A stretch of 28,593 nt of DNA. Source: a virus. A model generated the notes under the pieces. That model was not told where the DNA came from. It searched no databases and saw only the letters and a list, made by a program, of their open reading frames with translations. Shown here in pieces: positions 4,720 through 21,404 of this stretch. The stretch is taken from positions 1 to 28,593 of the IMG/VR virus record IMGVR_UViG_3300025770_000073; one strand, 5' to 3'. The stretch's first letter is position 1. Each line of letters begins with the position of its first letter. The position numbers and the translations under genes were made by a program.

Positions 4720-5128
4720 TCGGCAGACTTTGATTGGTCACTTAGGTAGTGACGTTGAATTGAAGACCCTTCCTTCGGGTGATCCGGTAGTGAATGTAAG
4801 TATTGCCGTGACGGATACCTGGAAAGGTAAGGATGGCGAAGAGCAGAAGAACACCAACTGGTTCAAGCTCGCCATCTTCAAGAAGCCAGCAGAAATATGG
4901 GAGAAGCATGCCTTTAAAGGGCAGAAGGTTTTCGTAGAAGGACCAACGCGCAACCGCTCCTACGACAATGCAGAAGGCGATAAGGTGTATGTCTCCGAGG
5001 TCCTTGTTCGGGACTTCCAGTTTCTCACATGGAAAGATGATGTGACAGCACAGGTCGGAGAATCACAGCCAGCCTTTGGTGGTCCCGTAGCACCCGAATC
5101 AACAGGCAATGATGGACTTCCCTTCTAA
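4706..5128 (+). CDS. ssb: Single-stranded DNA-binding protein
   Basis: Coats single-stranded DNA during phage replication and recombination. Residues 1-110 form the OB fold in the usual order: NRQTLIGHLGSDVELKTLPSG, then VVNVSIAVTD, the NTNWFKLAIFKKPAE strand with its conserved Trp-Phe, and GQKVFVEGPTRNRSYDN. The C-terminal tail is short and ends in GNDGLPF, close to the acidic D-D-x-P-F tip that recruits partner proteins. At 140 aa it is a little shorter than typical bacterial SSB. The start at 4706 has AAGGAG eight bases upstream; longer in-frame starts would cover the zinc-ribbon gene. It is followed by a strong terminator. Confidence 0.93.
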   Translation: MNGVNRQTLIGHLGSDVELKTLPSGDPVVNVSIAVTDTWKGKDGEEQKNTNWFKLAIFKKPAEIWEKHAFKGQKVFVEGPTRNRSYDNAEGDKVYVSEVLVRDFQFLTWKDDVTAQVGESQPAFGGPVAPESTGNDGLPF

Positions 5129-5157
5129 GGGTCAGCATTAATGAGTGTGTTGACCTT

Positions 5158-5205
5158 GGTCTGCTTGTCCGGTTCCCCTCGCCGGATGAGCAGACCTTTT
5201 CTTTT
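5158..5205 (+). terminator. Rho-independent terminator after ssb
   Basis: GGTCTGCTTGTCCGG (5158-5172) pairs with CCGGATGAGCAGACC (5182-5196) over 15 bases including two G-U pairs, around a 9-nt loop, followed by TTTTCTTTTT. It ends the 4152-5128 unit. The next gene starts 14 bases further on, so read-through or another promoter must supply it. Confidence 0.9.
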
Positions 5206-5218
5206 TGGAGATTACACC

Positions 5219-5395
5219 ATGCAAGCGATGAAGGATAAGATGGATAGCTATGACGAGTCTGTTGAATTAGAGCAACGACTAGCACTTGCAGATGATCATG
5301 TAAGAGGATTGCAGAAAGATTTAGTGTGGGCAAGGGCTGTGATTGAGCATCGCAACGAACAGATCCAGCGCATACTTGGAAAGAAGGCGAGCTAA
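5219..5395 (+). CDS. Small coiled-coil protein, 58 aa
   Basis: Not recognised. The ATG at 5219 follows TTTTTGGAG; an alternative ATG lies at 5228. The protein is helical and charged, with a Leu-spaced stretch (VELEQRLALADDHVRGLQKD) typical of a coiled coil. The stop and the next start share TAATG, so the two genes are coupled. Confidence 0.6.
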   Translation: MQAMKDKMDSYDESVELEQRLALADDHVRGLQKDLVWARAVIEHRNEQIQRILGKKAS

Positions 5396-5556
5396 TGTTT
5401 TGCACCGAGGATATATGGAAGGCCACCGATCAGTGGTGGGAAGGTGGACCTGAACCCAAAGAGTGTGAGGGTTGTGATGGGCAAGTGGAAGATGAGTTAG
5501 CTGATGACAGTGAGTTCTGCGTGGAGTGCTTAGAGATAGCGGAGCATGTAGGATGA
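5395..5556 (+). CDS. Small acidic zinc-binding-like protein, 53 aa
   Basis: A short ORF starting in the TAATG overlap with the gene before and ending in the ATGA overlap with the gene after. It has two C-x2-C pairs (C24/C27 in CEGC, C42/C45 in CVEC) 14 residues apart and a strongly acidic body. The overlaps on both sides and the paired cysteines support a real gene. It resembles the other small double C-x2-C proteins of this region in layout, not in sequence. Function unknown. Confidence 0.65.
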   Translation: MFCTEDIWKATDQWWEGGPEPKECEGCDGQVEDELADDSEFCVECLEIAEHVG

Positions 5557-5744: not shown

Positions 5745-6675
5745 GGTGGAAGTAGAGCAGGCTCGTGTTGAAGTGGATCACCTCAATCGCATACAGGTGG
5801 GTGATGACATTGGCGAGAATGAGCTTTGGAATCACGCAGGGTCAGTCGAGGTAACTTATGATGATCTTCGACAGATCCCTACGCCAGAAGACACCGCTAC
5901 TTACACGGCGATAGGTCATGCGGATATGGCCGAGACCTTATACAAACACGCAGATCGGCTGATGGCGCCGAAGGACTTCTATCTGGCAGGGCAGAAGTAT
6001 CTGGTGAGTAAGAATGGGGATCGCATGTTCTTCATTCACTCCTACCGCAACGGTGACACGGGCATGCAACTGGCACTGGCGGGTCGCAACTCCCTCGACA
6101 AGTCTATGCTGGCCGCGATTGCAGTGGGTGGTAAGGTTATCGTCTGCGATAATCTCGCTATGATTACTGAGGATGGTATCACAATCATGCGAAAGCATAG
6201 TGGGAATGCACGGAATCACCTGAATGATCAGATCATCTTGGGCATGGTCAAGGCTACTGATAACTGGGATGATATGCGCCGAGATCGGGATTTCATGGTA
6301 GAGACTAAGGTCGATCAGCACCACGGATATCGGTTGATGGGTGAAGCAAAAGCTTTGACGGCTAATAATAAGTCTGCATCGAAGAGGTTACTGTCATCTA
6401 ATAAGGAGTGGTCGGCAGCACAGTCGTATTGGGAAGATCAGAAGCATGAGTATGAGGGAGGCAACCGCACCCTATGGGCGTGGTATAACTCCTTCACCGT
6501 GGACATGAAGAGTCTTAAGCCAGAGTTGCAACTGGCACAGCACTCGTCGCTTCATGCCGTAGCAATGAACTCAACCTTACACCGGAAGTTAGGTGGTGAT
6601 GAAGAGGTTAGCGAGGGACATCGGTTCGGCCAGATCATAGAGGATTTAACAACCAACAGGGTAAGCGATGACTGA
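5722..6675 (+). CDS. DUF932-like phage protein, 317 aa
   Basis: The central part (about residues 85-170) shows the pattern of the phage and plasmid DUF932-type family: a conserved GRNSLDKSMLAAIAVGGKVI stretch, then VCDNLA, then a short segment and an RKHSGNA motif. In relatives this reads 'RNSHDKS...G.R.FVCDNLAF....K..RKHT'. The function of the family is not firmly known; members sit in phage and plasmid early regions near recombination or replication genes, as here. The C-terminal half (about 180-300) is helical. The start at 5722 has GAGGA just upstream. Confidence 0.65.
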   Translation: MSAVSDHEVEVEQARVEVDHLNRIQVGDDIGENELWNHAGSVEVTYDDLRQIPTPEDTATYTAIGHADMAETLYKHADRLMAPKDFYLAGQKYLVSKNGDRMFFIHSYRNGDTGMQLALAGRNSLDKSMLAAIAVGGKVIVCDNLAMITEDGITIMRKHSGNARNHLNDQIILGMVKATDNWDDMRRDRDFMVETKVDQHHGYRLMGEAKALTANNKSASKRLLSSNKEWSAAQSYWEDQKHEYEGGNRTLWAWYNSFTVDMKSLKPELQLAQHSSLHAVAMNSTLHRKLGGDEEVSEGHRFGQIIEDLTTNRVSDD

Positions 6676-7174
6676 TCCTGATTATGTGCCAAGCTCCACC
6701 CCTCGTCGGGCATTGACGAGGGGTGCGGTTGAGCGGGCCAGTAAGATATATGCTTCTGTAAGCCAAGCGGCAGGGTCATTGGGCGTTCACTCATTGACAT
6801 TCAAGAGGGCTTTGGAACGCTATGGAATCGCGGGGCCGAAGAGTAAAGACCGCTACTCTTTGGCCCCCATAAAAGCAAAGATGGGAAGGAATGGAGACTG
6901 GGATGGATGGGCGCGTCTATCTGCTGCGGTCGTAGCAAGTTCATTCCATGAGATCCAACGACTACAGGAGGGTATCAATGAAAGGCATTGCCGTGAGAAG
7001 GATCGGGATGAAAAGCAATCGGATATAGATACTATCGTTAGGGCATTGAAGAACCCCTTGAATCCGTTTGTAGTGTATCTGGACTGTAAGGGGCATCATA
7101 TAGACGACGCGCACATAGAGAGAGCATTGGAACTCATCAAGGAAAAGGTTGAGGGAAAGGGAGTTGACCTATGA
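6668..7174 (+). CDS. HTH-containing hypothetical protein, 168 aa
   Basis: Residues 24-53 (ASKIYASVSQAAGSLGVHSL and the following TFKRALERYG) read as a helix-turn-helix: 'S.S.AA..LGV....F.RALE..GI', similar to the recognition region of phage transcription regulators. The rest is helical with no known domain. It overlaps the DUF932-like gene by 8 bases and the next gene by 4. It could be a DNA-binding regulator, but no family is assigned with confidence. Confidence 0.6.
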   Translation: MTDPDYVPSSTPRRALTRGAVERASKIYASVSQAAGSLGVHSLTFKRALERYGIAGPKSKDRYSLAPIKAKMGRNGDWDGWARLSAAVVASSFHEIQRLQEGINERHCREKDRDEKQSDIDTIVRALKNPLNPFVVYLDCKGHHIDDAHIERALELIKEKVEGKGVDL

Positions 7175-8713: not shown

Positions 8714-9781
8714 ATGCCTAATCTTGCTACGTATTATTCTCCCACCTCTATAGATGATGCGGTGCGCGTATCATCTGCCCTTGCTGCGTCGGGTATGTTC
8801 CCCGATGTCAAGAAACCTGAGCAAGCTTTCGCTAAGATGATGGCGGGAGCAGAGCTTGGGTTCGGCCCCTTCGCTGCGCTCAGTGGTGTTGATATTATAC
8901 AGGGAAGGCCAGCGATCCGCGCTAACTTAATTGCTTCAGCAGTCAAAGCTAATGCCAAATACGACTTCCTTGTGAAAGAACATACTGAGACTAAATGCAC
9001 AGTAGAGTTCTTTGAAATCTTTGGAAGTGGAACGTTGAGTGAACGGCACAGTATTGGCACATCAACCTTCACAATGGATGACGCAAAGAAAGCTAGTCTT
9101 ACCAGCAAAGCTGTATGGAAACAATATCCACGCAACATGCTATATGCCAGAGCAGTAAGCAATGGTGTGCGCTGGCATTGCCCTGATGTATTCCACGGAT
9201 CAACAGTCTACACACATGAAGAGTTAGGGGCTGAAGAACCTATTGAAGTGGAGAGTATTGTGATCCAAGAAGACAAGCCGACAGAAAAAGAAAAAGCAAT
9301 CGAACAAGTAGTTGATACATTAAATGGGGATGTCGAAGAGCCGCCGCCTACCCGTGACATAGGTGAGCAGTCCAATCGTTTCTATAGATTTCTGGAAGCG
9401 ATGAAGGCTGAGAAAGCCCGCATCGGTGTGCCGCTATACTATAGTGTGCTTCGTGAGCATGGATTAGACAAGAGTAATAGCGTTGGCAAGATGGACTTTG
9501 CTAAGATGGGTAAGGTCTATAGTGCCGCTAAGGAATGCGGTGACTACCGAGAAGAAGATTACTCTTGGCGTAGGACATTAGACTGTGTTGAAAGTCGACG
9601 AATGCGCCGAGCAGAGAAAGAGAAAGTATCTTCTATTGCCGATATATTAGGTGGTATTATTAATCAACCACCATTACTAGATGAGGTCGACAGTGCGGAT
9701 GACCTTAGTGTTGGATACGAACCCGAAGACAGGGAGAAGATAGTTACTAAGTTCAGCTCAGAGTATTACCAAGCAGATTAA
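8714..9781 (+). CDS. RecT-like single-strand annealing protein
   Basis: Residues 1-170 match the RecT-type annealing family in order: an opening helix (IDDAVRVSSALAASGMFPDV), a 'QAFAKMMAGAELGFGPFAAL' segment (family: 'A..ki..G.ElGi.P..Al..i.vi.Gkp.l.A'), then VDIIQGRPAIRANLIASAVK, and then WKQYPRNMLYARAVSNGVRW and C-P-D-V (family: 'W..yPr.ML.aRA.s...r...Pdv'). Such proteins anneal complementary strands in phage recombination. The C-terminal half (about 180-355) is charged, helical and not assigned. The start at 8714 follows AAGGAG. No partner exonuclease is seen nearby; the Gam-like protein upstream could make one unnecessary. A terminator follows. Confidence 0.75.
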   Translation: MPNLATYYSPTSIDDAVRVSSALAASGMFPDVKKPEQAFAKMMAGAELGFGPFAALSGVDIIQGRPAIRANLIASAVKANAKYDFLVKEHTETKCTVEFFEIFGSGTLSERHSIGTSTFTMDDAKKASLTSKAVWKQYPRNMLYARAVSNGVRWHCPDVFHGSTVYTHEELGAEEPIEVESIVIQEDKPTEKEKAIEQVVDTLNGDVEEPPPTRDIGEQSNRFYRFLEAMKAEKARIGVPLYYSVLREHGLDKSNSVGKMDFAKMGKVYSAAKECGDYREEDYSWRRTLDCVESRRMRRAEKEKVSSIADILGGIINQPPLLDEVDSADDLSVGYEPEDREKIVTKFSSEYYQAD

Positions 9782-12700
9782 TTCCCTAAGCCGAGTGATT
9801 GGAGTGGGCTAATCCCTCCAGTTGCTCGGCTTTTTTTATTCTCATCTGGATCATACTTCTTGAGGCCAGTGAAGTATAGCCAATCATACTTCTTGCCCTT
9901 TAGTAAGTTGCCCATATCAATCTCCTCTCCGTAAAGCCTCCTCACCGTAGATGGAAGAGCAAAGGACTGTGCTGCGCGCAGTGCCTTGTGGTTTGCTTGC
10001 TCCATCCCCCCATCAATCAGCGAAGTCATCATCCCCGTTACCTTAGTCATCGTGTCACCGAATGGACCCATAAGATTCTTTACCACGGAACCTGGGAGAC
10101 CGTAGCGGCCGCTATCTTTTACCATATCAGCGGGGATGTCATAGGCTGGTGGCGTTGTGCGATCACTGATGTTAGTACCCGGCAAGGCATACGCCCCACC
10201 ACCGATTAAGGCGAAGTAAGCAATAGCATGCTTAGCTAAGGGTGCGTAGTCATCTGAATTACTAAACCTCTTACCATCATGCCCCTTCGTCAGTGCCTTG
10301 GCTACTAAGCCGAGGGTGAAGTCCGTCTGGTGCATGGGGTATGACTTGAACATAAGAAACAAGCGGCCCACTGGACTGCGTAGGATAGGTGCTGTCCCTG
10401 CACGGGAGAATGAGAAGTGGGTTTCTTCTACCAGTTCACGAGCCTTATGTAATGAAGCACCGTGTCCATCACCCATCTCTATATACTCTTTATAGGCGGC
10501 GAGTAATGTGGTTTCACGGTTGACCTCTTCCGAATACTTGGCAATGAACATGGACTTGTCTTGTAGATACTTGAGCGATCCCGCTGGCCCATCAAGGAAC
10601 TCTTGCTGCCTACCTACATCTCTACTTATACCCGACTCAGCAATGAGATCGGATATATTACGTCCGTTAAACGTCTTGTCTTTACCCACGCCGAAGACCG
10701 TGTGAGCATAACCCCAAGCTACATTCTTAGCCTTTAGCATCGCCAGCACATTGGTTAGAATCTGTGTCTGGTTAATCATACCATGTGCTATATTCAACCC
10801 TAGCTTAGCTACGATTTGTGTGCGGTATAAAAAGTTAGAAGTAGATGCGGCCATGTACGGGTTATTCGCTGCATTGCGGGTATCGTCTATACGCTTAGCT
10901 AGTACGCCACGTATCTTCTTGAGTGCGGCCTTCTCCTTCTTATCGCCCGTGACACGATCCCTCAAGCGAGTCATGTCATCCAACTCATTGAGCCACTTGC
11001 GTGATTCGAACATTAACTCAGAGTCATTAGGATTCAGTCGCGCACGTTGTAGTATAGCCGCGTCCTTACCACCAATGAACCCTACCAGCCGATCTACAGT
11101 AGAGTTAAAGACATGACTATCACTAAAGACATGGGCTACCTTTTGTCTAAAATCAGTAGGCATACCCATTGCATAGCGTAGGTATTTAGATAAGTCCTCT
11201 GCGATGTCTTGGTTGCCTTCGCTTACGAGCTTAAGCATTGCACTGCGCCCATGCTGTGCTATCTTGTCATTCGTAATCTTAGCAGACGCACCACGGATAT
11301 ACATACTCATGACTTGCTGGTAGTCATGCTCAAAGTGATCAAGGTTCGCTTCGCGCTTACGCAAGTGCCTGAACCCACGGCTCGGTGCTTCCGGTGATTC
11401 AATGGGTGCATCTGCCCCGAAGTCTTCCATCATAGATTTGAGCTTGCGGTTGGATGCGTTATCCATCGTGTTGCTTACCGAGGCCGCAACGTATTCGCCC
11501 GACCTATCAGAGAAGATATGAGGGATGTAGTAAGAGATACGCTTATTTTTCCCCAACCCTAAGTCATCTGCTATGGAGTTAGTCAGGCGAAGGTGCATGT
11601 CAATAGCTTCATTGATGTTGGGATTCTTAGCCATCGAAGGGTATGCTTTGATAGCAGTTGCCCTTGGCGCACCGTTGTTCATGTCCTCAACGACATTAAA
11701 GAAGTCATAGAATAACTTCTTCGTGTCTTCCTTTTTAATATCACGCTGCACTTTACCAGAAATCTGGTCTAGTATGTTGGCATTGTGCGGGATGCCTGTA
11801 ATAAGCTCTTCGATGTTCTGTAAGGTATCTCCCCCCTGCACGTAGTCCATCCACTTACCTTCCAACGACTGCTTCTCTACGGTCAGTCGGACGGTGTTAC
11901 GTATAGCCATTGCACTCATAGGGTGTGAACCAAAGCCAAGGACCTTGCTCGTTGGCACCCAGAACTTACGGAAAAGCGTATGCAGTGGGCCTCGCGCCTT
12001 ACGCTGCACATCTTCTGGTATCTCCATGTCGGCGTACTCTTGCAAGGGTGGGTTCTGCACGGGATCATTACCGAACCTTCTGCTATTTCCAGCCTCAGCC
12101 ATGCGATCAATGTCGTTTATTGCTCGGCTATTTCTCCTCGTCTTCACTGTAATAAGGTCTTCCGTAAGCCGATCAATGTGTTCGTTCGCACTTGCAACTG
12201 TAATGTTATCAGGTAGAAACTCCAGCGAGTGCATCTCGTTCAGCGTATCATCTTTCCTAATGGCATTAATTAAACCAGCTAGCCTCTCTCTCTGTTCAGC
12301 GGTAGCGGGGGATGCGCCGCCGACCTGAGTGGGGGTAGAAGTGAAGGGAAAGTTACTAGGCTCTATAGATTCCGCAGCTTCTTGAATGGGCCTGCCAGTG
12401 ACACTGATCTTCCACCCCTTCGATGTCCTATACCACCGATCTTTCCCTGTCTTGTCATTGCGTATCATTACCGCATCCTCGGCGGTATCAACGACAGTCC
12501 CTTCGATGGTCTGCTTGGCACTAGGCGAGATAGCTCGGCCGATCGCGCCCATATCGTCGGGCGAAAATTCCGAGTGTTGCTGTAGGGCGTTCGACCTTTT
12601 GATCCCTAACTTCTCATCGGTCTTCTCTGCAAAGTTATTATGATTACGGTTGCCTTCCTCAAAGCGAGGCGTTTCAGTTGGGTTCTCTGGCTTATCTATA

Positions 12701-14184
12701 ACTGCAATACGCTTGTTCTTTTCCTTAGCCTTAGCCCTAGTGTCTAACGCCAACTTGTTTACCCAGTTCTCATAAGCCGCCCTGCTTGTATCAACTTCGT
12801 AATTAGCAACCCCTGAATTTTCAGCCGCCACCACTTTCTTCTTTGCATCTTCCGAACCTCCATACCACTTCTTCCAAGTGAGGTAAGGGTGGCGAAAGTG
12901 TTCGATCTCATGGGTGACAACAAAATCTCTTAGGTCATCTATCGTATCAAAGCCACCCGACACGCCGTAGACACCACCCTGAGAATGCTTGTAGCTATCG
13001 GGATTATCGTATAGGGATTTAAGATTCTGCTCATCTACGAAGACCACCTTCTTTGGGTTATTACCAGCGGTGACTCGGACAGTCCCTACGATGTTGTCTT
13101 TTAAAGATCGTTTGTTGTTGAAGTATATCTCTCCATCCCACTCACCTAAGCCTGTATTGCTTTTGATTGCAGTAAATTCTTCTACAGGAAAAGACTTGCC
13201 CTCTCTTCCGAAAGACCACCCCGTCTTAGGCGAAATGACATTAGAATCAGGTAGGATAATATCATCAGCCCGACCACTCTCCTTGTTGTGCCGTAGTACT
13301 GCCGAATCATTCATCGACTCCATCTGCTTTACCGACTCACCATCAGTAAGGGCCATAGTTACCCTGTCAGGATCGTCCATCGCCCGCACATCAATAGGCA
13401 TCTGATCGAAGTCAGGCGGCACACCCGGTACAAGAGACTCTCCGTAAGCGTCCGTGTTACTAAGGATCTCCTGTGCGCCACCATCTGGCGCATCTAAGTC
13501 CATCTGGTTCTCTAGCTCAGTCTTTACTTCCTCCCGTATAGTGTTGCCCTCTTCTAATATATTGTCTGTGCTGCCTACCCCCGGCACCTTACGTCGTGCC
13601 AGATACTTCATCACTTTACGACCTAATATCTCTGACCCAATACCCAGTGCCATCCACTCAGCAAAAGAGTTATCTAATTCAGATAGGTCATCTGCTCTAT
13701 AGGTATGAGCCAATGAACCAAGGACAGCTTCTGGTGTCGAAGCGGCCGCTATCTCGGAGACCTTGCCTACTATACCAGCACTCTTACCTGTGATACCCCG
13801 CTTTAATAGAGAGTCAACTACACGCTTGCCAACTGGAACACCCACGCGCATACCAGTTTTAAACAAAGCACCGCCACTAGCCATACCGCCCAGTAGCCTA
13901 CCCGCTTCCCTCGCTGGCTGCACTTCGCCAAGCAAGGGAAGGTCTACGGTGCCAGCATCCTTACCATACTCTTCAAGGTCCACTAGCCCATAGGTAGCCC
14001 CTTCGGGTATACCCGCTGTAAAAGCTGCAATATTATCTTGTATTGTATTAGTAGGATCTTCAAATTCAGAGACATCATACCCTCTCTGTTTGAACTTGTC
14101 CAAAAATTGATCTTTGCGGAAAGGTCGCTTAGCTACATACTCAGCAATCTTAACCTTGATCTCATCAGGTAATGGATTTGCCAT
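9778..14184 (-). CDS. Giant internal virion / polyvalent protein, 1468 aa, HExxH motif
   Basis: Probably a DNA-ejection protein carried in the particle; size, place at the end of the structural block and domain style fit podovirus internal proteins. Residues 100-180 hold Gly/Ala-rich amphipathic helices. At 425-429 is HEIEH, a zinc-protease signature, in a context DFVVTHEIEHFRHPYLTW, with a YEN..VN..AL helix about 50 residues later that could give another ligand. Residues about 1115-1400 resemble a large-polyvalent-protein-associated C-terminal domain (LPD38-like): an N-x-x-x-Q helix near 1125-1145, PVGRLFLMFKSYP near 1272-1290 and a hydrophobic helix near 1320-1340. The coding end overlaps recT by 4 bases, tail to tail. 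The protease call is inference from one motif. Confidence 0.75.
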   Translation of the reverse strand: MANPLPDEIKVKIAEYVAKRPFRKDQFLDKFKQRGYDVSEFEDPTNTIQDNIAAFTAGIPEGATYGLVDLEEYGKDAGTVDLPLLGEVQPAREAGRLLGGMASGGALFKTGMRVGVPVGKRVVDSLLKRGITGKSAGIVGKVSEIAAASTPEAVLGSLAHTYRADDLSELDNSFAEWMALGIGSEILGRKVMKYLARRKVPGVGSTDNILEEGNTIREEVKTELENQMDLDAPDGGAQEILSNTDAYGESLVPGVPPDFDQMPIDVRAMDDPDRVTMALTDGESVKQMESMNDSAVLRHNKESGRADDIILPDSNVISPKTGWSFGREGKSFPVEEFTAIKSNTGLGEWDGEIYFNNKRSLKDNIVGTVRVTAGNNPKKVVFVDEQNLKSLYDNPDSYKHSQGGVYGVSGGFDTIDDLRDFVVTHEIEHFRHPYLTWKKWYGGSEDAKKKVVAAENSGVANYEVDTSRAAYENWVNKLALDTRAKAKEKNKRIAVIDKPENPTETPRFEEGNRNHNNFAEKTDEKLGIKRSNALQQHSEFSPDDMGAIGRAISPSAKQTIEGTVVDTAEDAVMIRNDKTGKDRWYRTSKGWKISVTGRPIQEAAESIEPSNFPFTSTPTQVGGASPATAEQRERLAGLINAIRKDDTLNEMHSLEFLPDNITVASANEHIDRLTEDLITVKTRRNSRAINDIDRMAEAGNSRRFGNDPVQNPPLQEYADMEIPEDVQRKARGPLHTLFRKFWVPTSKVLGFGSHPMSAMAIRNTVRLTVEKQSLEGKWMDYVQGGDTLQNIEELITGIPHNANILDQISGKVQRDIKKEDTKKLFYDFFNVVEDMNNGAPRATAIKAYPSMAKNPNINEAIDMHLRLTNSIADDLGLGKNKRISYYIPHIFSDRSGEYVAASVSNTMDNASNRKLKSMMEDFGADAPIESPEAPSRGFRHLRKREANLDHFEHDYQQVMSMYIRGASAKITNDKIAQHGRSAMLKLVSEGNQDIAEDLSKYLRYAMGMPTDFRQKVAHVFSDSHVFNSTVDRLVGFIGGKDAAILQRARLNPNDSELMFESRKWLNELDDMTRLRDRVTGDKKEKAALKKIRGVLAKRIDDTRNAANNPYMAASTSNFLYRTQIVAKLGLNIAHGMINQTQILTNVLAMLKAKNVAWGYAHTVFGVGKDKTFNGRNISDLIAESGISRDVGRQQEFLDGPAGSLKYLQDKSMFIAKYSEEVNRETTLLAAYKEYIEMGDGHGASLHKARELVEETHFSFSRAGTAPILRSPVGRLFLMFKSYPMHQTDFTLGLVAKALTKGHDGKRFSNSDDYAPLAKHAIAYFALIGGGAYALPGTNISDRTTPPAYDIPADMVKDSGRYGLPGSVVKNLMGPFGDTMTKVTGMMTSLIDGGMEQANHKALRAAQSFALPSTVRRLYGEEIDMGNLLKGKKYDWLYFTGLKKYDPDENKKSRATGGISPLQSLGLGN
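9788..9837 (+). terminator. Rho-independent terminator of the rightward genes
   Basis: AAGCCGAG (9788-9795) pairs with CTCGGCTT (9825-9832), with an inner GGAG-type stem against CTCC, followed by TTTTTTT (9831-9837). It ends the recT transcript. It lies inside the last codons of the 1468-aa gene on the other strand, whose C-terminus is therefore fixed by hairpin sequence. No T-run serves the leftward direction. Confidence 0.85.
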
Positions 14185-18596: not shown

Positions 18597-18964
18597 TACG
18601 TCACCTCCAATTCAAGGAACTCTTCTTTTTCTTCATACTGAGCTTTGATCACGTTGCGCCTGTCATGATCTCTTTTCAACGTGTTACTACTATCCCACAC
18701 AGCTTTCTTTAGGGCGAGGAGTGCTTTGATCTGCTCCTCCCTTAAATGATTTATTGTATTCGCTGGCGTACCGGTATTGTCTTCTTGCTGAACAGCCCCC
18801 ACTGTCAAGAAATCATCCAATGACTCTTGTTGAGCGACATGCTGAGTGCAGTTCTTCCACTGGCCTAAACCAGCCTGTAAGCGAATGATTAACTTCTCAA
18901 CCTTTTCAATTGTAGCAAGGTCAAGTTGGTGCATTCTCTCGTCTAAAGTATATACGTCTTTCAT
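18596..18964 (-). CDS. Hypothetical helical protein, 122 aa
   Basis: Not recognised. It is almost wholly helical and charged, with an 'REEQIKALLALKKAVWDSSN' helix in the middle of the second half. It overlaps the gene upstream by 4 bases (ATGA type), so the two are coupled. It may be a minor virion or assembly protein by context. Confidence 0.6.
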   Translation of the reverse strand: MKDVYTLDERMHQLDLATIEKVEKLIIRLQAGLGQWKNCTQHVAQQESLDDFLTVGAVQQEDNTGTPANTINHLREEQIKALLALKKAVWDSSNTLKRDHDRRNVIKAQYEEKEEFLELEVT

Positions 18965-19335
18965 ACTTTCCTCAGTGTTTGTCTGTTGCGAATGTAATCT
19001 GCACGTTCTTCCTGTGGACTAATGCCGACATTACAGAGGACGCTCGACTCGGCTGATGTCCCAGACTTGACCACATGAACGACTAGCCAGCCCAAGTCTC
19101 CTGTGTCGGTGCTGTTCAACTGGACTGTATACCAACCATTGCCTACTTCAGCCCAAGCTCCATCGCTTGCACTAGCAAAGGATGCTCCGTTCTTACTGAT
19201 GGTTATCGTGGGCGATGAAACGCCTGTCTCCAACGTAGACAGGTCCGTCCCATCAACCAACAACACAGGCACCTTCTGTTCAGCAACGCCATGCGATAAG
19301 CGTATTTGCCCATTGTGATACCCGACTTTAGCCAT
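18961..19335 (-). CDS. Beta-rich minor structural protein, 124 aa
   Basis: Residues 20-95 follow a beta-sandwich pattern common in phage tail or fibre-associated proteins: VPVLLVDGTDLSTLETGVSS, then TITISKNGASFASASD, then EVGNGWYTVQLNSTDTGDLG, W-L-V-V-H-V. In relatives, 'LTVTISKDGG.......VGNGWY.L.LTA.DT...G.L....' is seen in tail attachment or host-range modules. No enzyme motif. It overlaps neighbours on both sides. Confidence 0.6.
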   Translation of the reverse strand: MAKVGYHNGQIRLSHGVAEQKVPVLLVDGTDLSTLETGVSSPTITISKNGASFASASDGAWAEVGNGWYTVQLNSTDTGDLGWLVVHVVKSGTSAESSVLCNVGISPQEERADYIRNRQTLRKV

Positions 19336-19780: not shown

Positions 19781-19793
19781 TGGGTTCATCCCT

Positions 19794-20210
19794 TTAGTCT
19801 TCGCCATTGGGTGTGTGTCCGTTTGGACCTTCAGACGCTTTCCAATAATCCTCCGAGTCCAGCTTCTCCAGCGGCTTTTCAATCCGCATACTCGCTAATG
19901 CCGTATTAGCAACCGCCAGCTTAGTCCCGCCAACCAACGTCCCGTGGCGGTAGGTATATAGATAAAACACCGTCTTCGTTAGTCCTACTCGCGCTATGCG
20001 TCCGGGTCTACCGTCCACGATGACCACATCGTCCTCATCGTAGTCACTTCCAAAGAACACTTGCAGCCCTGCTACGCTCTGCTCTATCGAAGACTTGAAC
20101 AACAGTAGGGCAAACGCTACAACGAATATCCACGCATACTCACTGATGATGTGAGCGAGTCCACTCTGCGCTCCGAACTCTACGAGTGCGTCAGCGGCTG
20201 TGGTCTCCAT
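19794..20210 (-). CDS. MscS-like mini protein: one helix plus beta domain, 138 aa
   Basis: A hydrophobic helix at about residues 25-39 (WIFVVAFALLLF) is followed by SSIEQSVAGLQVFFGSDYDE and a beta stretch, DDVVIVDGRPGRIARVGLTK, then T, then KLAVANTALASMRIEKPL. This follows the order of the third helix and beta domain of MscS channels ('...N...G......F..GD.V...G..G.V..I....T......G....PN..L....I.N'). The full channel has about 286 residues; the first two helices and the C-terminal cage domain are missing. The tail is acidic. The gene lies next to the holin-like gene in the lysis region. It may form a small membrane pore, modulate lysis or bind the host channel. The ribosome-binding site GAGGA is very close to the ATG. 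Confidence 0.6.
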   Translation of the reverse strand: METTAADALVEFGAQSGLAHIISEYAWIFVVAFALLLFKSSIEQSVAGLQVFFGSDYDEDDVVIVDGRPGRIARVGLTKTVFYLYTYRHGTLVGGTKLAVANTALASMRIEKPLEKLDSEDYWKASEGPNGHTPNGED

Positions 20211-20236
20211 TCCTCAAGCCGGATCGCGCGGCGGTT

Positions 20237-21404
20237 GCATGTTACGCAGATTCCAGTGCGGTGATCTTGGCCTCTGCTGCTTCGAGGCGGGTCTGTAACT
20301 CTTGGACGACTTTGAGTCCAATCTGAGACAATACAGAATATTTTGCACTTTTCGTCGTGGTGCCTAAGTCAATCAACTCCTTTTCAGTTACCTCAACTTC
20401 GTTGCCGTCTAAGTCAGTCGTATATGTCGGGTTGCCGTCCTCGTCCAATACAGGTACTTGACGCTCTTCGGTGTCGTTAGACTCAGAAACCAGACCGGGA
20501 AAAACCGTCTCCAACTCTTGGGCTACTACTCCGAATTGCGCGGGTGCATCTGCGTCTACAAGGACATCGTCTTTGCGGCGAAATTTACGAAAACGAACGG
20601 CTTTGAAATCGTCCCAATAGTCCCTCGCATCTACAATGTCTTGCTTGATTTTAATGTCTGAAATTGCTCCATATGAATTGTTGGCATTAGTGGCATTGCC
20701 ATTCGTGGCTACGATAAAACGCTCACCAGCATTGTCATGTAAATAAAGAAAATATTCTGAGGTGGTGCCCGTCACGCCCCCCGTCATTTTCATCGACAAT
20801 CCGCGAGGAGTCGAGGTAGCGGAGTTCTGTATGTCCATCGCCCCCCCATCACTTTTCACGGCCTTGACACTTAATGCGCCATCGGCGGCGATCCGCATAC
20901 GCTCGGCGGCGTTGACATCAAATTGCATATAATCACTTGAATGAACGTAGCGGATAAAGCCAATATCGGCATCGTCAGCATCACCAAAATAGACTCCGCT
21001 GACGTTGCCCGCCGCAGTTAATAGAGATAACCCCACGTTCTGACTATTCTCTACAATCAGATCGTCACCATTAACTACAGCGGTTCCTCCACTACTTCCA
21101 GTTCGCACGTTTAGCGTTCCCTGCGTACGCGCAATGCCCACCCCTGCGTTGCCCACGACATTGAGCGTAGTCCCGTCAAACGTCAGGTTCGCCTCGGCAC
21201 TCAGCGCACTCGCCCCATTGCCCGTCAAAAGACTACTGGTCGCTACCGTAGTGAGGCCCGTCCCACCGTCTGCCACGCCAATCGTATCAGCCGCAACAAA
21301 CTCAGCGAGGCCGTTGGTGTCCGTGCCGCTGTAGGTGGCTTTGATCGGCTTCTTGTCAGCCATTGTTGTTGTCCTTTATTAGTTTGTGCATGTTACGCAG
21401 ATTC
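20237..21404. repeat. 17-bp direct repeats bracketing the S74 fibre gene
   Basis: GCATGTTACGCAGATTC is present at 20237-20253 (covering the stop of the fibre gene) and at 21388-21404 (covering the stop of the 102-aa gene). The segment between them is exactly one gene. This is the pattern left by insertion or duplication of a gene cassette, or a hot spot for its loss by recombination. Confidence 0.8.
20242..21363 (-). CDS. Tail fibre or spike with S74 self-cleaving chaperone domain, 373 aa
   Basis: Binds the host surface after trimer assembly. Residues 1-80 are low-complexity fibre (GGTGLTTVATSSLLTGNGAS); 84-152 is a beta module with DLIVENSQNVGLSLL and YFGDADDADIGFIRYVHSSD, also found in the adjacent 907-aa fibre. 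From about 230 the intramolecular chaperone (Peptidase_S74) begins: SDIKIKQDI with the expected Ser235 and Lys240 pair, then FRKFRRKDD, FGVVAQELETVFPGLV and KYSVLSQIGLKVVQELQTRL ending in a coiled coil. In the family this domain cleaves itself off after folding. The whole gene is bracketed by 17-bp direct repeats. A ribosome-binding site AAAGGA precedes the start. Confidence 0.88.
   Translation of the reverse strand: MADKKPIKATYSGTDTNGLAEFVAADTIGVADGGTGLTTVATSSLLTGNGASALSAEANLTFDGTTLNVVGNAGVGIARTQGTLNVRTGSSGGTAVVNGDDLIVENSQNVGLSLLTAAGNVSGVYFGDADDADIGFIRYVHSSDYMQFDVNAAERMRIAADGALSVKAVKSDGGAMDIQNSATSTPRGLSMKMTGGVTGTTSEYFLYLHDNAGERFIVATNGNATNANNSYGAISDIKIKQDIVDARDYWDDFKAVRFRKFRRKDDVLVDADAPAQFGVVAQELETVFPGLVSESNDTEERQVPVLDEDGNPTYTTDLDGNEVEVTEKELIDLGTTTKSAKYSVLSQIGLKVVQELQTRLEAAEAKITALESA

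Follow-up and report, generated by a model that had tools for sequence, protein, structure and literature searches.

A cage-less, one-helix relative of MscS channels encoded by uncultured SU10-like and T4-like phages

A 138-aa protein encoded in a virus record of 28.6 kb (28,593 nucleotides, analysed at full length and hereafter called the window) is almost certainly a remote relative of the MscS beta-domain superfamily, an identity that we regard as secure. The protein is a cage-less, one-helix variant of this superfamily and not an MscS channel: two features that define the canonical channel, the TM1-TM2 paddle and the alpha/beta cage, were looked for and are absent, and we therefore do not file it under that name. 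This minimal MscS-fold unit, one helix shorter than the smallest described channel that we found, recurs in different lineages of uncultured phages. As a true MscS relative that often lies beside a gene for a small, holin-like membrane protein, it suggests that the phages carrying it equip the host membrane with a minimal valve or plug of their own. Our best single guess, at a probability of about 40%, is an accessory ring in the inner membrane that acts as a minimal valve late in infection.

Gene and domain organization

The layout of the gene and of its surroundings is given in Table 1. Over seven relatives, in which synonymous sites are nearly saturated, the mini gene shows pN/pS values of 0.14-0.40, and of 0.04-0.31 within the beta domain; ratios this low indicate a selected protein under purifying selection. 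The only visible Shine-Dalgarno-like motif, GAGG (window 20208-20220), lies 1 base from the ATG, an unusually short spacing, and its placement in the sequence hints at weak translation or at translational coupling with the upstream gene.

Table 1. Positions of the mini gene, its domains and its neighbours in the window
Feature	Position	Strand	Basis or remark
Tail-fibre protein, C-terminal Peptidase_S74 chaperone	20242..21363	-	Directly precedes the mini gene; upstream border of the cassette
Miniature MscS-like gene	19794..20210	-	138 aa, ATG start; stop codon 19794-19796
Short N-terminal helix, residues 5-15	20166..20198	-	AlphaFold model and alignment
Sole transmembrane segment, residues 20-38, within long helix 17-52	20097..20153	-	TM prediction, AlphaFold
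TM3b-like half of the helix, residues 39-53	20052..20096	-	hhalign, conservation
MscS-type beta domain, residues 54-114	19869..20051	-	Pfam, hhalign, Foldseek
Short variable tail, residues 115-138	19797..19868	-	Alignment, AlphaFold; alpha/beta cage domain absent
Two-TM holin-like protein, 77 aa	19547..19780	-	39% identical to a 75-aa protein (L013:1867-2091)
Small probable coiled-coil protein, 67 aa	19335..19538	-	Comparable small proteins in the cassette of relatives (by eye)
124-aa protein	18961..19335	-	Conserved just downstream of the cassette

Transmembrane prediction finds a single segment across the whole mini family, without the TM1-TM2 sensor paddle that would precede TM3; in MscS, TM1-TM2 are the tension sensors. 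Acidic residues before the segment and basic residues after it suggest an orientation with the N-terminus outside and the C-terminus inside, as for MscS TM3. According to the family alignment, the short helix at residues 5-15 is absent from shorter members such as L054. Residues 39-53 (KSSIEQSVAGLQVFF) are aligned by hhalign to MscS QGSLSNLAAGVLLVM, G48 corresponding to MscS G121. Small residues at positions 23, 26 and 32 are kept in at least 94% of family members and, together with position 48, are the only conserved small residues of the helix, in an alignment that is reliable over the end of TM3 only. An invariant aspartate (D60) stands where MscS has G133, and the PN motif keeps an invariant asparagine (N102) with its proline in about 10% of members. 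The mini proteins stop about 10-45 residues past the beta domain and have no C-terminal alpha/beta domain with side portals.

Relationship to the MscS beta-domain superfamily

Taken alone, the window protein has a sole Pfam match, to PF00924 (MS_channel_2nd), over residues 41-83, with an E-value of 0.047 and 14.3 bits, below the cut-off of 20.2. The same Pfam family is matched by 10 of 12 close relatives, which match almost nothing else, and the curated cut-off is exceeded by L066 (26.9 bits, E 5.3e-6), by L025 (20.8 bits) and by the second copy on L091 (24.1 bits). Altogether 11 of 50 records lie above it, including one ordinary host MscS in a MAG, and scores among relatives reach 28.5 bits; the branch 2 contigs except L091, and all branch 3 contigs tested, lie below.

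Profile-profile alignment takes the relationship beyond Pfam. With hhalign, the mini family matched eight full MscS proteins at a probability of 92.5 (E 4.8e-7), residues 34-108 of the window protein falling on residues 107-173 of E. coli MscS, and inclusion of all branches raised this to 95.6 (E 1.2e-8). The probability climbed with family diversity, from 10.8 for close relatives only to 86.7, 92.5 and finally 95.6, while an unrelated neighbour family used as a negative control gave 0.2 (E 0.34). The aligned region extends from the last part of TM3 across the beta domain, at an identity of about 16-22% over the aligned part.

Predicted structures agree. The AlphaFold model with a mean pLDDT of 79.8 shows a single long helix (17-52), then a small barrel (strands 62-65, 68-75, 79-88 and 91-101) and a short helix (102-105); a small barrel after a membrane helix is also the arrangement of the MscS beta-domain superfamily. 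Two models of the family were computed (pLDDT 67.9 and 79.8). In Foldseek searches of the PDB, MscS-type channels took ranks 1-46 for the first model (best E 9e-4) and ranks 1-50 for the second (best E 2.8e-3), with probabilities of 0.95-1.00, modest E-values and TM-scores of 0.33-0.47. The leading matches of both were MscS, YnaI, MscK, MSL1, MSL10 and Flycatcher1, and the TcMscS structures 9bgu, 9bgq and 9bgt were among the matches of the second.

Could a small beta barrel resemble MscS by chance? The sub-threshold Pfam score of the window protein, the modest Foldseek E-values and a search of PDB chains with the sequence profile, which gave no significant MscS match, would all fit such an accident, although this last result is expected at so large an evolutionary distance. 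Against it, relatives exceed the curated Pfam cut-off, hhalign support grows with diversity while the control stays low, helix, beta domain and asparagine motif are co-linear with MscS, and nearly all of the PDB fold matches listed belong to one family. In view of the larger families, the negative control and the two models, we reject chance likeness as highly improbable. The proposal of the initial annotation that the protein keeps only the beta domain and the last, pore-type helix of MscS is thus borne out by Pfam in relatives, hhalign, AlphaFold with Foldseek and the single TM segment (residues 20-38), and the profile comparison that it called for came out in favour of MscS, through PF00924 in several relatives and through both hhalign alignments.

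Distribution of the family

The family was gathered by iterative IMG/VR scans with family alignments. A first set comprised 109 matching stretches, a second branch 8 loci and a third 66 loci; roughly 180 uncultured viral contigs other than the window carry a mini-MscS protein, and all three branches come from uncultured phages of SU10-like and T4-like type. Members of two branches can share one contig (L091/L112): on L091, two genes from different branches lie almost in tandem (5968-6315 and 6676-7005), about 360 bases apart.

Among 50,697 phage records, tblastn with eight members (the window protein, L008, L066, L049, L136, L138, L113 and L159) found no relative; the only match, in Edwardsiella phage pEt-SU (E 0.9), falls inside a large virion protein and was discarded. 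PHROGs holds no family matching the mini protein. A first pattern scan of bacterial genomes returned no mini-MscS, and a second returned two MAG contigs that carry it with phage genes nearby; when 61 relatives of one of these MAGs were searched by HMM, further phage-like loci turned up in another MAG.

Full-length E. coli MscS, used as an approximate query sequence, matches 17 records of the phage collection. The annotated records that we opened are bacterial contigs, and the others are unannotated faecal scaffolds, so that the 17 records are not evidence of phage MscS. In L120, L123 and L124 the full-length gene adjoins metL, waaA and gspE, and MscS matches in phage databases accordingly need checking.

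Genomic neighbourhoods

The window contains SU10-like head genes and S74 tail-fibre genes; its minus strand encodes probable virion proteins, its plus strand functions in DNA metabolism (RecT-like, DUF932). A 1468-aa protein (9778-14184), a short C-terminal stretch of which resembles DarB-like, very large phage and Rhizobium phage proteins, is possibly an injected virion protein. Directly downstream of the mini gene the initial annotation had seen a holin-like gene, and it is indeed there: the 77-aa product has two TM segments, and its ATG lies 14 bases past the mini gene stop (an in-frame ATG at 19789 would make it 80 aa).

Among SU10-like relatives, the mini gene adjoins, on either side, a gene for a coiled-coil and two-TM protein (c7). 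The order in L013 is mini gene, c7, a small coiled coil and the 75-aa relative of the window's 77-aa protein; a GH108 endolysin lies some 2 kb farther on, encoded on the other strand. L111, a contig of a Marinimicrobia MAG with phage head genes, carries a tandem of the mini gene, a TM and coil protein and an adjacent GH108 endolysin; the TM and coil gene is spanin-like (weak PHROG match to Rz-like, E 0.0096). L139 runs in one direction from a GH108 endolysin through a lipoprotein, a TM and coil protein and the mini gene to the two-TM protein c4; L142 is similar, the endolysin lying about 1.5 kb upstream of the mini gene in both. Relatives without the mini gene were located through the conserved 124-aa protein of Table 1, and in three of these (L129, L133 and L134) other small TM proteins occupy its slot, which points to the mini gene as an accessory of a membrane-gene cassette and not as its only holin. 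Beside the mini-less cassette of L129, a 181-aa protein (4870-5412, minus strand) looks by eye like an M15-type peptidase and has no Pfam or PHROG match.

The neighbours in branch 3 are mostly tail and baseplate genes: about 50 contigs have a T4-type baseplate block ahead of the mini gene and usually c4 after it (gene identities by eye), and c4 follows the mini gene in about two-thirds of the 66 loci. Other T4-like contigs place it near an outer-membrane-like protein, a lipoprotein, a thioredoxin and a POPDC and cNMP-binding protein; at L049:9503-10159, a POPDC-like membrane protein carries a cyclic-nucleotide-binding domain, and both Pfam matches score above cut-off. Two type-IV-pilin-like proteins (by eye) adjoin the gene in a further T4-like contig (L105:6556-7692), and members of the L054 group carry it by itself, on the opposite strand. 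The c4 proteins (for example L136:1893-2267 and L205:3486-3758) form a widespread, unnamed two-TM family and may represent a membrane or lysis protein that has gone unrecognised in marine T4-like phages. We count 348 phage records with a c4 relative, nearly all of them from Vibrio phages, and in none was the mini protein detected. In the cultured Pelagibacter phage Mosig, c4 alone is found at the corresponding place, between baseplate-hub genes.

Position thus varies strongly between lineages, and we reject a constant place in a lysis cassette. The lysis region of the initial annotation stands in part: L111, L013 and L139/L142 have a GH108 endolysin next to the mini gene or no more than about 2 kb from it, but no recognisable endolysin appears among the window ORFs scanned, the 77-aa protein matches no Pfam or PHROG family, holins included, and most T4-like contigs have their GH108 gene 9-100 kb from the mini gene or none that was found.

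Possible functions

We propose that the mini protein would be embedded in the inner membrane of the host, the acidic N-terminus pointing outwards and the beta domain lying in the cytoplasm, where this domain would assemble the protein into a ring, a heptamer by analogy. Late in infection this ring may act as a minimal valve that relieves or tunes osmotic and membrane stress, in an accessory role beside the small membrane proteins that the phage itself encodes, and so could keep the infected cell from bursting before programmed lysis. Three things lead us to favour the minimal valve: how the protein is built, the precedent of TcMscS (PMC12334622) and the membrane genes nearby. The MscS beta-domain homology, the predicted fold, the one TM helix, the frequent pairing with a small two-TM protein and the GH108 endolysins near some members speak for it; the many T4-like contigs in which the gene is not near a recognised endolysin, the solitary genes of the L054 group and the tail and baseplate surroundings of branch 3 speak against it. 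With TM1-TM2 absent and few of the small packing residues of TM3 apparently kept (23, 26 and 32), closing of the pore in the manner of MscS is not assured. It is improbable, in our estimate, that the one-helix ring is the smallest working mechanosensitive element known and the tension-responsive part of a lysis or envelope programme, opening or triggering its two-TM neighbour as the weakened wall lets tension rise.

The same architecture would suit a dominant partner of host MscS, whose subunits join or cap host rings through the beta domain and close or alter them; this might, for instance, retain ions and turgor up to the moment of lysis or thwart a second phage. A ring-forming beta domain and a pore-type helix kept while sensor helices and cage are lost is what one would expect of a poisoning subunit, and an ordinary MscS (G050:C46) is present in the Marinimicrobia MAG to which L111 belongs. 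We nevertheless consider such a partner rather unlikely: the family spans different phage types with no visible specialisation to one MscS, and the low identity over the aligned part makes mixed rings doubtful. A lysis protein proper, either a holin-like or lysis-timing pore or a beta ring that gates or clusters the neighbouring two-TM protein, would account for the small TM genes adjacent in three lineages, for the endolysins of L111, L013 and L139/L142 and for the spanin-like gene of L111. This too seems fairly unlikely, for L129 keeps the rest of the cassette without the mini gene, the c4 partner occurs in its 348 records without a detected mini protein, and most T4-like contigs lack an endolysin neighbour. 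In Pfam and PHROG, the mini protein matches no known holin family.

The baseplate neighbourhoods raise another alternative, in which the protein is not a channel at all and serves as a beta-ring scaffold, anchored in the membrane, that helps to assemble the tail or baseplate, to bring in DNA or to organise the envelope. Branch 3 genes are flanked by baseplate hub genes on one side and a large gene of hub or tape type on the other, the window gene lies between the tail fibre and further probable virion genes, and phage Mosig carries c4 by itself at the baseplate-hub site corresponding to branch 3. Among beta-barrel folds, however, the likeness is specifically to MscS, and gene positions differ widely between lineages, so that we judge a scaffold distinctly unlikely. 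Whichever applies, the consequences differ: a mini protein that conducts would redefine how little structure a mechanosensitive channel requires and show phages controlling host turgor, whereas one that does not would mean that the MscS beta ring has been reused as a plug or scaffold.

Comparison with known systems

We found no description of the mini-MscS family in a literature search that covered few subscription papers. Related viral proteins are on record. A viral-metagenome study names MscL and mechanosensitive channels among viral genes (PMC13288924). The gp51 protein of the cultured myovirus Paraglaciecola Antarctic GD virus 1 (PANV1) is reported to match MscS (6RLD) in HHpred at E 7.2e-17 and to have a TM helix that is only weakly predicted (PMC9239159); on that description, it resembles the mini protein in being an MscS-matching phage protein. 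The BFVD models A0A1B1IQW5 (138 aa, 46% identity), A0A516MLU7 and A0A516LVN0 are viral proteins without a name that resemble it in size and predicted fold.

With E. coli MscS and the bacterial and plant MscS/MSL proteins (PF00924), the phage protein shares the beta domain, the end of TM3 with the G121 glycine and the asparagine of the PN motif. Unlike them, it lacks TM1, TM2 and the alpha/beta cage, has D60 in place of the family-conserved G133, keeps the PN proline in a minority of members only and appears to have largely lost the small-residue packing of TM3.

The closest parallel is TcMscS of Trypanosoma cruzi, a heptamer with tension-gated currents that has only TM2, TM3 and the beta domain (PMC12334622); this precedent weakens the earlier objection that a full channel needs more of the protein. 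In both proteins the beta domain directly follows the pore helix, the alpha/beta cage and TM1 are absent, a short N-terminal helix is present, and chain lengths are similar (137 residues in the TcMscS structure). TcMscS is a eukaryotic gene product that has TM2 besides TM3 and proven channel activity, whereas the phage-encoded protein, known here from its sequence, has one TM helix fewer.
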